A stretch of 39,366 nt of DNA from Bacteroidaceae bacterium (lineage in GTDB: Bacteria > Bacteroidota > Bacteroidia > Bacteroidales > Bacteroidaceae): NCBI GenBank assembly GCA_021443335.1, contig JABUUE010000004.1:1-39366 (forward strand), in the 5' to 3' direction. The notes beneath the pieces were generated by a model. It was not told the DNA's origin. It saw only the letters and a list, made by a program, of their open reading frames with translations, and did not search any database. Positions 15,637-21,317 of this stretch are shown here, piece by piece; the stretch's first letter is position 1, and each line of letters starts with the position of its first letter. A program made the position numbers and the translations under genes.

Positions 15637-17673
15637 CTAATATTTGTTGTTCTCTTTAATTATTCCGTGACGGTAAGCATATAACAGTGTTTTGAGGTCA
15701 TCTATTTGTTGTCTCAATATCTGTCCTTGGTCGGTATCGGCAACAAGCAGACGCTTTCCGGACATTTCAACAATCTGCCTCATAGATTTAATATCTGTAC
15801 CTCTTGCCACAGCATCTTCTGTGGAAGTGAAAGCCTCATGCTGTACAAGTTCAAATCCGCGAGAGTGATAAACAAGCGTATAGCCTGCAATACCGGTTTC
15901 CTTGTGATAAGGCTCTGAGAATCCGCCGTCGATAACCATCAACGAACCGTCAGCCTTCACGGGGTTTTCACCCTTATTCACATGTACTGGTACATGTCCA
16001 TTTATAATATGACGATGTTCGCCTGTAACACCGAAGGCGTCAAGAATATTTTGACAGACATCCTTATCGTTGCGAAGGGTAAAGTAATGTCCCTTGTCTT
16101 CTTTCCATGTATCCTTATCTTTCAGGAAATAGCGTTCAAAAGTAGCCATCTTGCTCTTGTTGAACAAAGTGGAATCCTTGCCGCTCCAAAGGTAAAGGAA
16201 ATAGTCTATGGCATCTTGCTTGTTTTGCTTTGGAGTGTCATTATTAAACGCCGCACGGATGACAAGTCCTGTATGGTGAAGGAGTTCCTTGCCACTATAT
16301 TTCTTCCCATTAGGCAGCAGAACCTCTTTCATTGTACCATCAGCATTCAGCGGGATGGCAGCATGATAAAGAAGGTTATTGTTGATGACGGAGTACATAC
16401 ATCCATGAGAGAGAAGCAAGCGAATATGCTTATGCAGTTTCTCGCTGACACGGAAAGAATGGTGCAGACGACGCATCAAATCACACTCTTCCTCCGTAAG
16501 TTCTGTTGGATTGGCAGGGTCAATCGTTGGGAAATTGAAGCTGTTCATCTCGTAATTGCAGATTTCAGAATCGCCTGAAGCTGACGGCATGCGACAAGTC
16601 TTGGTCTCAAAATCAAGACATGAGAGAAGGTCTCTGTCACTCATCTCCCACTCAGGATGCTTGGCAACTATCTGTGCCTCCACCTTAAACTGGATGATAC
16701 TGATAGCCTTATGCATAAGCCCGGCAAGATGCATTGTCTTCTCGTCAAACTGCGCCTTCTTGTCGTCGTTGGTGATAGGCATAAACTCCTCGCAAGGGTC
16801 GTCGCCATAAGTTTCAAGGGCGAAAGTGGCAAGCGGCACAAGGTTTATTCCATAGCCGTCTTCGAGGGTTTGAAGGTTGGCATAACGCAGAGAAAGACGA
16901 ATGACATTGCAGATGCAAGCATCGTTGCCTGCTGCCGCTCCCATCCACAGGATATCATGATTGCCCCACTGTATATCCCAACTATGATAATTTTTTAGGT
17001 AGTCAAGAATAAGATGCGCACCAGGTCCGCGGTCAAAGATGTCGCCAAGAATGTGTAACGAATCTATTGACAGACGCTGAATGACATTTGATATTGTAAT
17101 GATGAAATCGCTTGCACGACCAGTGGAAATAATCGTATCGATAATCATGTTCACATAAGCCACCTTGTTGTCTTCATTGGTGCGCTCGTGCAAGAGTTCC
17201 TGTATAATGTAAGAGAAATCTTTCGGCAACGCTTTGCGAACCTTTGAGCGAGTGTATTTGCTTGACACCTCAATCAGGATTTGCACAAGCTGATGAAGTG
17301 TGACATGACACCAATCGTCAAAGTCATTCTCCTCATTGCGCACAATCTCAAGCTTCTCTTCCGGGTAATATATCAATGTGCAGAGTTCGCGCTTCTCCGC
17401 CTCTCTCAACTGATTTCCGAAAATCTCGTTAACTTTTCTCTTGATATTTCCCGAAGCATTTTTCAGCACATGCATAAAAGCCTGATGCTCACCGTGAAGG
17501 TCAGCAAGAAAATGCTCCGTACCCTTAGGCAGGTTAAGTATTGCGCTAAGATTGATAATCTCAGTGCTGGCAGCGGCAATCGTTGGAAAAGAATGAGAAA
17601 GCAGCTGCATATATCTCATGTCTTTTTCGATTATTTCTTTCATAGTTTTTAAATCACTCATCTTTGAAATCAT
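15637..17673 (-). CDS. fbp: Class III fructose-1,6-bisphosphatase
   Basis: A 678-aa enzyme of the Firmicutes/Bacteroidota-type FBPase (B. subtilis Fbp family), hydrolysing fructose 1,6-bisphosphate to fructose 6-phosphate in gluconeogenesis. The N-terminal block EIINLSAILNLPKGTEHFLADLHGEHQAF is characteristic. Metallophosphatase-like motifs are visible: LADLHGE, LGDIFDRGPGAH, WGNHDILWMGAAAGN and a late INGHVPVHVNKGENPVKADG. Length agrees with the B. subtilis enzyme (about 670). Two further Met codons lie within the first 11 residues, so the start is approximate. It is 19 bases downstream of the GT4-like gene and closes that part of the minus-strand run. Confidence 0.95.
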   Translation of the reverse strand: MISKMSDLKTMKEIIEKDMRYMQLLSHSFPTIAAASTEIINLSAILNLPKGTEHFLADLHGEHQAFMHVLKNASGNIKRKVNEIFGNQLREAEKRELCTLIYYPEEKLEIVRNEENDFDDWCHVTLHQLVQILIEVSSKYTRSKVRKALPKDFSYIIQELLHERTNEDNKVAYVNMIIDTIISTGRASDFIITISNVIQRLSIDSLHILGDIFDRGPGAHLILDYLKNYHSWDIQWGNHDILWMGAAAGNDACICNVIRLSLRYANLQTLEDGYGINLVPLATFALETYGDDPCEEFMPITNDDKKAQFDEKTMHLAGLMHKAISIIQFKVEAQIVAKHPEWEMSDRDLLSCLDFETKTCRMPSASGDSEICNYEMNSFNFPTIDPANPTELTEEECDLMRRLHHSFRVSEKLHKHIRLLLSHGCMYSVINNNLLYHAAIPLNADGTMKEVLLPNGKKYSGKELLHHTGLVIRAAFNNDTPKQNKQDAIDYFLYLWSGKDSTLFNKSKMATFERYFLKDKDTWKEDKGHYFTLRNDKDVCQNILDAFGVTGEHRHIINGHVPVHVNKGENPVKADGSLMVIDGGFSEPYHKETGIAGYTLVYHSRGFELVQHEAFTSTEDAVARGTDIKSMRQIVEMSGKRLLVADTDQGQILRQQIDDLKTLLYAYRHGIIKENNKY

Positions 17674-17692: not shown

Positions 17693-18922
17693 TTATCCCT
17701 GCACTTGCCAAAGCAGCAGTTTGTCTTTTATCTTCCGTGTTATATCATCGTCTAACGGTTCCATTGGCATGAAACCTTCTTCAAGGTTGTAATAGTCTTT
17801 CAATAACTGCATCAGTCTCGCAGTGTCTTGCAAAGCACCCATACGAAGAAGAATGACATTCAATGTGTCTTCATCATAATACGTTGTCTTCAGCGCCTTA
17901 TACAGCTCTATGAGATGTCTCTGCGAAATAGAATTGTGAACAATCTCATGCTTTACGTTCAACAACAGCCTTATGATTAACAAGTCGTTTTCTGTTGCCT
18001 TTTCCTCTTTGCCATAAGCCTCCAAGTCTGATTTGCCCGAAAGCATCTTCACAGAATAAAGAGTATCCACATTCTTTTTTGTGTTATAGACATAATGCAG
18101 TGTGTTATCAGCATAGTCTTTCGCCCCGTTAGGCAGAAAAGGAAGCAAGATTTTGAGAGTACCCTCATACTGGGCATGTAGTATGATACGGCCCAATCCT
18201 GACAAAGGTGCGGCTGAGGAGGAACTGCTATCAGATGGCTCAATAGACGTATAAGACGAATGTTTATTGCCAACATGTTGTTTCTGCATCACCGCCTCTT
18301 TCAGGAGCATAACCTCTTTCTGTTTTTCCTCGTCAGTCATGAACAGATAAGGATTACTGTTTGACAGCGTCTCACATAAAGTAGCATAATCAGAACGCAT
18401 CTGTTCTTCTGAGTAGCCTGGCACAAGAAGCGCATTCGGGATGTTCACCACATGCAGATTCGTCTGGATATTAGTCTCCTGGGGAGAATCCGTCAGTATG
18501 ACATCTGCTTTTTCCACAATCTTTTGCTGATACAATCTGGTTTGTAGGAAGCGTTGCAGTATGTTTGAGTTATGCCATGGCATAAGCAACTTATGAGTGG
18601 AAAGAATCAGTGGCCGTTTGTAAAACTTTTCATTCCAATCCACAATGTCAGCCATAACACTTGACCAGCACGAATGTATGTTGATGATGTCTGGATTCAC
18701 TTCGTCCATTACTTTACAGAAACGGCGCTTGTTTTTCCATCTCACCCATTTGAAATATGACAGATAATGCACCTGAACACCCTCAACCTCAACATCATAT
18801 TCAGGTTTGGGCATCAGCAAGTGAACCTCCAGTTCCTCGTCTGCATCGTTAGCCAATAGTTCAAAATATTCTTTCGGCAAACGAATTGGGTCAAAGTCAT
18901 CTATATAGTGAAGAATCTTCAA
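17693..18922 (-). CDS. Glycosyltransferase GT4-like N-terminal domain with unrecognised C-terminal half
   Basis: A 409-aa cytoplasmic protein. Residues 1 to about 175 resemble the acceptor-binding N-terminal Rossmann domain of GT4 transferases (MKILHYIDDFDPI; PDIINIHSCWSSVMADIVDWN; PLILSTHKLLMPWH; KADVILTDSPQE; NIPNAL). The expected donor-binding second Rossmann domain with its E-x7-E motif is not visible. Instead there is a helical stretch, a serine-rich linker (SDSSSSSAA, about residue 230) and a C-terminal part, mostly helical by eye, that I do not recognise. It may be a non-catalytic or strongly diverged partner of the GT2 protein encoded immediately upstream (12-base gap), perhaps in polysaccharide assembly. 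A short overlap with fbp regulation cannot be judged. Confidence 0.6.
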   Translation of the reverse strand: MKILHYIDDFDPIRLPKEYFELLANDADEELEVHLLMPKPEYDVEVEGVQVHYLSYFKWVRWKNKRRFCKVMDEVNPDIINIHSCWSSVMADIVDWNEKFYKRPLILSTHKLLMPWHNSNILQRFLQTRLYQQKIVEKADVILTDSPQETNIQTNLHVVNIPNALLVPGYSEEQMRSDYATLCETLSNSNPYLFMTDEEKQKEVMLLKEAVMQKQHVGNKHSSYTSIEPSDSSSSSAAPLSGLGRIILHAQYEGTLKILLPFLPNGAKDYADNTLHYVYNTKKNVDTLYSVKMLSGKSDLEAYGKEEKATENDLLIIRLLLNVKHEIVHNSISQRHLIELYKALKTTYYDEDTLNVILLRMGALQDTARLMQLLKDYYNLEEGFMPMEPLDDDITRKIKDKLLLWQVQG

Positions 18923-18934
18923 CTCTGATTTAAT

Positions 18935-20137
18935 TTAATACTTATGACTGATAAATTCCGTTTTATCAGATATCATATACTTTATCTTATATATGAAATG
19001 TTGCCACAGCAGATACAACTCAAAGTGTGTGATGAATTTCGCCTTAAGCTCTACCCTAAACCTTTTCAGCGATTTCTTTGCAAGCCATTCCCTGATGAAC
19101 AAGCCAATAGGTAATGATAGAAAAGATGCGGTAGCTGCTATCCATTGTGAAGTATAAAACGCATAGACAGCCATGAGGATAGCTATCGGGAACGACAGGT
19201 GCAAAACCATCTGGTCAAGGGCCACAAGCATACGATGTTTCCACTTGCGTTGCAGATGCTTGCGAGTCTCATGGAAACAACGATGGAAAAGGTCAAATTC
19301 ATGAGCCGTATATTTGTCTCTTGCACACCATGAATCGGGATGAGTCTCTACAGCCACATTATCTTGTAAAGCATAAGTGTTTACCAAAAATTCATACTCG
19401 CCAAAGGTGTATTTCAGATTACCCGAATATCCTTTGCCATTCATGAACATCGACTTTCGGAACATCAGGTTTCCTCCCGCCGTACTGTAGGCCAGCCCTT
19501 GCTCTGCCTGGCGCAGATTATACAGTTGCCACAGATGTCGCTCAAAGCGTTGGAAGTCAGCATGTCTTTGTTCTCTTGCATTCACGGCATTTTTAAAAGA
19601 GCCGACAGTGAATTTCTCTTTCGCAATAGTTGTATATCCGAGAACAATGTCTTTTCCAAAGCAGTTGCGTGCCATGACGTTCAGCCAATTGTAACTTTTT
19701 GGCTCAACATGACCGTCGGTCAGCATTATCCAATTATATCTCGCTGCCTTGACGCCAAGAGTAACAGCCAACTTCTGCAACCCCATGTAGTGAGAAGAGT
19801 CTGGCACATACGTTGTACGCAGTCTCTCTTTATTAGGCAGTTGCGACAATTGAAACTGATAACTCTCCTCATGTATCTTCTCATTATCCACAACAAGTAT
19901 TACCTCATAGTCCGACTCATACTGCTGGTTCAGAAACGATGACAGTTTCATCAAAACACGTTCCGGATTATCAAACGCAGAAATAATAACACTTATCGAC
20001 GGCATCTTTATGCCATCAGTGCCATTATATTCTCTAACCCTTCGTAACTTTCTGAAATAAGCGGAGCATAGCGGCAGTAATATCACTATCGCTATGCTTG
20101 CTATTATGAGGAATACACTTGTCGTAGTCAATGACAT
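18935..20137 (-). CDS. Membrane-bound family 2 glycosyltransferase
   Basis: A 400-aa protein. An N-terminal helix (VFLIIASIAIVILLPLCSAYF) precedes a GT-A domain with PSISVIISAFDNPERVLMKLSSFLNQQ and YEVILVVDNEK, an LTDGHVEP segment at the usual DxD position (TDG rather than a clear DxD), and STAGGNLMFRKSMF, which fits the acceptor-site GGN of GT2 enzymes. Two further hydrophobic segments lie near residues 305-345, so it is probably an inner-membrane enzyme making a cell-surface glycan. It lies between lysA and the GT4-like gene, with 12-28-base gaps, so it is probably co-transcribed with amino-acid genes to which it has no obvious metabolic link. Confidence 0.8.
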   Translation of the reverse strand: MSLTTTSVFLIIASIAIVILLPLCSAYFRKLRRVREYNGTDGIKMPSISVIISAFDNPERVLMKLSSFLNQQYESDYEVILVVDNEKIHEESYQFQLSQLPNKERLRTTYVPDSSHYMGLQKLAVTLGVKAARYNWIMLTDGHVEPKSYNWLNVMARNCFGKDIVLGYTTIAKEKFTVGSFKNAVNAREQRHADFQRFERHLWQLYNLRQAEQGLAYSTAGGNLMFRKSMFMNGKGYSGNLKYTFGEYEFLVNTYALQDNVAVETHPDSWCARDKYTAHEFDLFHRCFHETRKHLQRKWKHRMLVALDQMVLHLSFPIAILMAVYAFYTSQWIAATASFLSLPIGLFIREWLAKKSLKRFRVELKAKFITHFELYLLWQHFIYKIKYMISDKTEFISHKY

Positions 20138-20165: not shown

Positions 20166-21317
20166 CTATAATTCATCGCTTGTCCAGCCTTTCGGGAGTT
20201 GCCTGCAGTTATAGCCAGACGCCATTATCTCGCCATAAGCTCCAGCGGAACGCAAGGCTATTAGATCGCCACGCTTTGTCTTATTAACCTTGCGTGCCTT
20301 GCCAAACACATCTGTAGATTCACAGATAGGTCCGACAACATCATACACTTCCTCCGCCTCGTTGCTCATAATGTTTTCTATCTTATGATAAGCATCATAG
20401 AGCGCAGGACGAATAAGGTCCGTGAAGCCAGCATCGACGATGAGGAATTGTTTTGCCACACCCTGCTTAATATATAATGTGCGAGTGATGAGCGTTCCGC
20501 ATTGAGCCACCACCGAGCGTCCAAGCTCAAAGTGAAGCGTCTGACCGTCGCGGAGTTTCAGGCCATCAGCGTAGGTCTTGAAAAAATCCTTGAAGTTTGG
20601 AACAGGGTTTGCGTCAGGGTCCTGATAATCAACACCTAAGCCGCCACCCACATTTATACTTTGCAAGGTTATTCCTTCTGCCTCGAGTTGGTCCTGAAGT
20701 TCGTTAACACGCTGGCACAACGCAGCGAAGTCATCCATCTCCAATATCTGCGAGCCTATATGGAAATGCAGACCAGTGAAGTTGACGTTTGGCATTTCAT
20801 TGGCTATACGAATAGCCTTTGTCATATCACGCATCGCAATTCCAAATTTGTTTTCAGCAGTTCCTGTAGTGATGTTTGCATGAGTGTGTGCTCCTACCTC
20901 CGGATTAATACGGAAAGCCACATTTGCCTTTGTCTCAAGATTGCCGGCAAGCTCGTTGATAACCTCCAGTTCAGGAAGACTTTCCACATTGAAACATGCA
21001 ATGCTGAGGTTCAGACCAAGTTCTATCTCCCAGTCAGCCTTTGCCACACCGGCGAAGACAATCTTGTTTGCAGGAAATCCCGCAGCCACAGCAGCCTCCA
21101 CCTCTCCACCGCTCACACAGTCTGCTCCCATTCCGCTCTTTGCTATGATACGGAGAAGCTTCGGATTAGCGTTTGCCTTTACTGCGTAGTGAACGCAAAA
21201 GTTATCATATTTCCCTGCTTCTTCGTTGATGTTGTCAAGTGTTGTGCGCAACAAGTCGGCATCGTAGAAGTAAAAGGGAGTGTCTATATTGTTTAGTTGT
21301 TGTGTTGGAAAATTCAT
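20166..21317 (-). CDS. lysA: Diaminopimelate decarboxylase
   Basis: A 383-aa PLP enzyme that converts meso-diaminopimelate to lysine. The PLP lysine sits in VHYAVKANANPKLL; other family blocks are GMGADCVSGGEVEAA, FHIGSQI, NVGGGLGVDY, ELGRSVVAQCG, VGPICESTDVFG (active-site Cys of the adjacent subunit) and SAGAYGEIMASGYN. Length is a little short of the E. coli enzyme but normal for Bacteroidota. It follows lysC by 39 bases, so the first and last steps of the lysine pathway are paired. Confidence 0.95.
   Translation of the reverse strand: MNFPTQQLNNIDTPFYFYDADLLRTTLDNINEEAGKYDNFCVHYAVKANANPKLLRIIAKSGMGADCVSGGEVEAAVAAGFPANKIVFAGVAKADWEIELGLNLSIACFNVESLPELEVINELAGNLETKANVAFRINPEVGAHTHANITTGTAENKFGIAMRDMTKAIRIANEMPNVNFTGLHFHIGSQILEMDDFAALCQRVNELQDQLEAEGITLQSINVGGGLGVDYQDPDANPVPNFKDFFKTYADGLKLRDGQTLHFELGRSVVAQCGTLITRTLYIKQGVAKQFLIVDAGFTDLIRPALYDAYHKIENIMSNEAEEVYDVVGPICESTDVFGKARKVNKTKRGDLIALRSAGAYGEIMASGYNCRQLPKGWTSDEL

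Follow-up and report, generated by a model that had tools for sequence, protein, structure and literature searches.

Split glycosyltransferases of the Alg13/Alg14 type consist of an acceptor-type and a transferase-type protein. Pseudoenzymes in general, including pseudo-glycosyltransferases, have retained the fold of an enzyme and lost its catalysis. Here, we describe two neighbouring genes of a Bacteroidaceae bacterium, P1 and GT2, that resemble both systems. As in the Alg13/Alg14 type, the genes for an acceptor-type and a transferase-type protein lie side by side, but P1 and GT2 include no competent donor-binding partner and the partners are separable in nature. As in other pseudoenzymes, P1 appears to combine a kept fold with lost catalysis, but here domain cores rather than single residues seem to have been excised, and P1 joins two such gutted enzymes of different kinds. 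Although pseudoenzymes are an already known kind of protein, we found in open papers no described case of two apparently core-excised glycan enzymes that are fused and conserved, and our search of the open literature found no paper on PF14907 or on pseudo-glycosyltransferases of the P1/GT2 kind.

P1 is related to two enzyme families. With GT4 glycosyltransferases (GT-B fold, Bacteroidaceae type MKILHYIPS.DRS.GG), P1 shares the N-terminal acceptor domain and the terminal helix, whereas the donor Rossmann domain of about 160 residues is missing. With NTP_transf_5 (PF14907, uncharacterised nucleotidyltransferases), it shares the C-terminal helices with the LEE..M..P.D...G motif region as well as a weak N-terminal W..L...A..Q match, whereas the nucleotidyltransferase core of about 150 residues (LKGxGN...GDIDVW) is missing.

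Genomic context and distribution

The window, i.e., the whole stretch of 39,366 nucleotides that was analysed, contains the gene order ftsE-lysC-lysA-GT2-P1-fbp-serS, all on the minus strand. The original prediction placed two open reading frames, tightly coupled, between lysA and fbp, and this was confirmed: the stop of GT2 and the start of P1 are 12 bp apart, and 19 bases separate the end of P1 from fbp. The features discussed below are as follows.

15637..17673, minus strand: fbp, class III type, conserved downstream neighbour
17693..18922, minus strand: P1, chimeric GT4-shell/NTP_transf_5-shell protein, 409 aa, TTG start at 18922
17708..17995, minus strand: P1 residues ~310-405, NTP_transf_5 C-terminal helical part with the motif LEEGFMPxxPxDDxxTxxIK (hhalign, HMM)
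18128..18316, minus strand: P1 residues ~203-265, putative remnant of the NTP_transf_5 N-terminal helices (W..I..hA..EG...; weak, recurrent, collinear)
18212..18234, minus strand: serine-rich stretch, P1 residues ~231-237, missing from L059/L060
18350..18427, minus strand: P1 residues ~166-191, putative remnant of the GT4 terminal cross-over helix (YS..kMA..M..lY.KV; hhalign)
18428..18922, minus strand: P1 residues ~1-165, GT4 acceptor-type N-terminal domain (PF13579/PF13439, hhalign, AlphaFold Rossmann-like)
18935..20137, minus strand: GT2, degenerate membrane family-2 glycosyltransferase, 400 aa
19391..19402, minus strand: position of the GT2 ED motif (catalytic base), here G-E-Y-E, whereas many other genera of the Bacteroidaceae have GEDD/GDDD
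19709..19717, minus strand: position of the GT2 DXD motif, here D-G-H
20166..21317, minus strand: lysA, conserved upstream neighbour

The start of P1 is backed by its homologues, which begin with MKILHY or MRILHY at the same position. The source genome carries one copy each of P1 and GT2. A P1 profile matched 184 of the 200 genomes of this Prevotella-type genus (E<=1e-3), although a few of the weaker matches may be ordinary GT4s, and 83 of the 86 good-quality ones. The recurrence of the P1 architecture in about 180 of 200 genus genomes is well beyond chance. Outside the genus, full P1 was seen in one sister genus only (G017).

The usual arrangement in the genus is lysA-GT2-P1-fbp. Among 78 P1 loci, which were drawn from match lists so that the fractions are approximate, fbp lies directly downstream of P1 in 73; directly upstream are a full GT2 (46 loci), a short GT2 (19), none (12) or another arrangement (1). 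Strict linkage of P1 to fbp was ruled out by G075, which has P1 and no fbp found in the genome, and by G208, where fbp lies elsewhere. We also looked for an equivalent partner in other genera, but the gene after GT2 in the examined sister genera is, by eye, an apparently unrelated MATE-type transporter. PADLOC gave no match that would point to a role in anti-phage defence.

The N-terminal half of P1 resembles a GT4 without its donor domain

In Pfam, P1 resembles the GT4 N-terminal domain only, slightly below the curated cut-offs (27.4 bits against PF13579, cut-off 29.7; 26.3 against PF13439, cut-off 28.5). All 15 P1 family members that were searched matched the GT4 N-domain models, and none of them matched Glycos_transf_1 or another donor domain. 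Comparison of the P1 N-domain with real GT4s by hhalign gave an E-value of 3.5e-45. Of the two domains of a GT-B enzyme, P1 thus has the N-terminal acceptor Rossmann domain, and the C-terminal donor Rossmann domain (Glycos_transf_1) is absent.

Structural models agree with this picture. An AlphaFold model of whole P1, made from a seven-row alignment and of low confidence (mean pLDDT 60), predicts Rossmann-like beta-alpha elements up to residue ~160-165 and helices only beyond; modelled alone, the C-terminal half was all-helical, again with low confidence (pLDDT 58). In Foldseek, the alignment of the P1 model to GT-B enzymes was limited to about 180-210 residues of their N-terminal part, with a query TM-score of about 0.3. 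As the confidence of the models is low, the claim that the donor domain is missing rests mainly on sequence evidence from across the family. Together, these data support the absence of a donor-binding Rossmann domain from P1, as the original prediction had supposed. A standard GT-B fold was ruled out by the Pfam results for 15 members, the helical AlphaFold models and the partial Foldseek coverage; structure prediction and fold search of the C-terminal half yielded no GT-B fold whose donor site is complete.

The segment of P1 directly behind the acceptor domain (residues ~163-191; consensus in the family, SIT.EEMA.Q...LY.KV.DS) finds its best counterpart in the last helix of GT4s, YSSKKMAEDMVRLYGKI. 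Aligned with the final 23 residues of GT4s, the segment has an hhalign E-value of 3e-5 (probability 73%), and in 13 of 15 GT4s this helix was its best site. On the simplest reading, a GT4 would have lost its donor domain through an internal deletion that spared the cross-over helix. The serine-rich linker that had been noted in P1 is present in the window, but it is not found in the nearest relatives (L059 and L060) and is thus a species-specific feature rather than a family trait.

The C-terminal half of P1 resembles the shell of NTP_transf_5

The C-terminal half had been called unfamiliar; it indeed contains no donor domain, but profile-profile alignment now identifies it as the shell of a nucleotidyltransferase. 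The P1-family profile matches the C-terminal part of proteins of ~350-390 aa across many Bacteroidaceae genomes, which Pfam assigns to NTP_transf_5 (PF14907). An integrase-like origin of these matches was dropped, since the matched proteins belong to PF14907. Aligned with the NTP_transf_5 profile by hhalign, P1 scored a probability of 97% (E 1.5e-10), whereas 30 column shuffles reached at most 2.7%. The alignment was repeated between 71 P1 sequences and an independent set of eight NTP_transf_5 proteins chosen by the PF14907 model alone, which rules out circular choice of the sequences; the probability was 96.4% (E 1.3e-9), and 40 shuffles stayed at or below 0.4%. PF14907 itself gave no match to the window P1 or to 15 family members in Pfam, and neither sequence search nor Foldseek found a relative of solved structure for the C-terminal half.

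In the reverse search with an NTP_transf_5 HMM, most P1s matched positions ~190-308 of the model, with E-values as low as 9e-16, and often showed an additional weak, collinear match at model positions ~9-75. The N-terminal match was found in many P1s (model positions ~17-57, best conditional E 0.001). As single matches are weak, we are less confident of the putative N-terminal remnant than of its C-terminal counterpart. No P1 was matched at model positions ~76-190, the core, which carries LKGxGN...SGDIDVW in NTP_transf_5 relatives. Of NTP_transf_5, P1 thus has the C-terminal helical region, and the nucleotidyltransferase core with its GDxD-type motif is absent.

E382, G383, P386 and T395 in the C-terminal half are near-invariant in the family alignment, and so is PDIVHIHxCW in the N-domain. 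This conservation might reflect an enzyme of new activity, formed by the LEEGFMP motif region and what is left of the GT4 acceptor pocket. We consider this very improbable, as the C-terminal motif aligns to a helical, non-core part of NTP_transf_5 and the acceptor-domain motifs have decayed in several P1s (L061-L064, for example, are without ~55 residues).

A relative of NTP_transf_5 within the genus (L163:1021-1935, 305 aa) has an apparently eroded core motif (VTGPGL...TKGVDLYV) and an MPVEP motif that resembles P1. It may represent another degeneration step.

The neighbouring GT2 is degenerate

GT2 matches the GT-A domain PF00535 above the cut-off (30.7 bits) and has hydrophobic segments at both ends of its sequence. 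We compared the motifs of 47 full-length GT2s of the genus with those of 20 relatives from other genera. The ED base is missing from all 47, which have GE[YF] or AEY instead, whereas most of the 20 relatives have kept an aspartate at this position. DXD is intact (DAD) in seven of the 47. Furthermore, many GT2s of the genus have been shortened to ~200-240 aa; these have neither the catalytic region nor membrane segments but keep the GxYDFI strand. Such a short GT2 and its neighbouring P1, such as those of L179, would probably be soluble. P1 is full length where GT2 is cut, at about a quarter of the loci. Full-length GT2s may have residual activity, which is conceivable because some keep DAD and the lysA-linked GT2 family as a whole has unusual motifs.

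The ED base is also lost in a sister lineage without P1, outside the genus, where the lysA-linked GT2s of L041, L043, L047 and L050 have GATE, GAME or GVTE. This loss is independent.

The pairwise distances of P1 and GT2 are correlated (0.82); with fbp and lysA controlled for, the partial correlation is still 0.70, whereas permutations reached 0.34 at most. Part of this covariation could arise because adjacent genes are inherited or transferred jointly. The genes are usually adjacent, but each also occurs alone: P1 is found without any GT2 of the lysA-linked family in genomes such as G429, G266, G199, G254, G208, G221 and G158, and a GT2 lies directly before fbp without P1 in G177, G193 and G465. 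This means that the partnership is not obligatory. In G235, G159 and G212, GT2 is found beside lysA and P1 with fbp at another place. At L268, L269 and L270, the lysA-linked GT2 is followed by a large ORF of 686-1000 aa, with P1 and fbp elsewhere in the genome.

The original prediction offered a two-protein glycan synthase, in which P1 would present the acceptor and GT2 would bind the donor as in Alg13/Alg14. The short gap between the genes in most genomes, the covariation of their distances and the acceptor-type domain retained by P1 would all fit such an enzyme, but its supposed donor-side protein, GT2, is itself degenerate and dispensable: it is without the ED base, mostly without DXD, internally deleted at many loci where P1 remains full length and absent from some P1 genomes. 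We therefore regard an active two-protein enzyme as quite unlikely.

P1 and GT2 diverge fast under purifying selection

Mean identity is 26% for P1 and 38% for GT2, versus 72-73% for lysA and fbp. This fast divergence, the repeated truncations and the split ORFs seen at L223 and L266 would be expected if P1 and GT2 were decaying, functionless relics that are retained merely through their operon. However, dN/dS among close pairs is mostly 0.03-0.18 for both genes, short GT2s included (one distant pair reached 0.40). Values so far below 1 in fast-diverging genes argue for a maintained function of P1 and GT2. The ORFs are also intact in most of ~180 species, and the C-terminal motif residues of P1 are fully or nearly conserved, so that decay without function seems unlikely.

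Both split ORFs possibly represent recent pseudogenes or assembly errors. At L223:3468-4394, P1 is divided into two ORFs; at L266:2971-4094, in a genome without P1, GT2 is divided into two overlapping ORFs.

A probable non-catalytic partnership in glycan synthesis

By sequence, P1 and GT2 combine homology to enzymes, loss of the catalytic sites and retained selection. The anatomy of P1, a GT4 shell joined to an NTP_transf_5 shell, is shown by its profile matches; likewise, motif and domain comparisons show three catalytic centres that are absent or broken, in shells that are conserved and under selection. P1 is thus probably a non-catalytic fusion of two core-excised glycan enzymes, paired with a degenerate GT2 as a scaffold or regulator. 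The GT4 part would have lost the donor-binding domain by excision and kept its acceptor domain along with the cross-over helix at the end; the NTP_transf_5 part would have lost its catalytic core, which left the N- and C-terminal helices; and GT2 would be a family-2 glycosyltransferase after loss of the catalytic base. Instead of transferring sugars, P1 and GT2 would usually cooperate by binding envelope-glycan enzymes, lipid-linked acceptors or each other, and the shells may act through this binding as scaffold, regulator or decoy in envelope-glycan synthesis.

More tentatively, P1 and GT2 could form a genus-wide, non-catalytic regulator of surface-glycan assembly from which the cores have gone and the docking surfaces have been kept. 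The shells would then bind either next to the active GT4, GT2 and NTP_transf_5 proteins that are clustered in Bacteroidaceae polysaccharide loci or as substitutes for them. A regulatory partner, which had been proposed as the alternative to a synthase, is compatible with the P1-GT2 distance covariation beyond background, but unproven.

P1 would be a clear example from nature of two unrelated enzymes that each lost the whole catalytic core and whose shells were then joined; nearly all sampled members of the genus, a dominant one in the gut, have kept the product. Should the shells be docking surfaces, they may provide a clue to the assembly of bacterial glycan enzymes and a way into the NTP_transf_5 family, which has hardly been studied. 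Annotations as 'glycosyltransferase' at the lysA-fbp locus probably misassign the activity.

Canonical GT4, GT2 and NTP_transf_5 genes adjoin in Bacteroidaceae polysaccharide loci. The canonical GT4s closest to the P1 N-domain were used to select 18 loci, of which 13 also carry NTP_transf_5 and GT2s; the genes of L260 run GT4, hexapeptide acetyltransferase, GT2, GT2, NTP_transf_5. It is plausible that P1 was born by fusion of two neighbours of such a polysaccharide locus.

A module of GT4, hexapeptide acetyltransferase, GT2, sometimes a second GT2, NTP_transf_5 and a protein of ~590-630 aa recurs in Bacteroidaceae polysaccharide loci (L260:1231-7806 and L257:8136-16590; also L247, L249 and L253-L256). 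The two module-end proteins that were tested matched no Pfam family. At L259:3450-5330, an ORF of 626 aa matches both NTP_transf_5 and GT2 profiles and is an apparent natural fusion.
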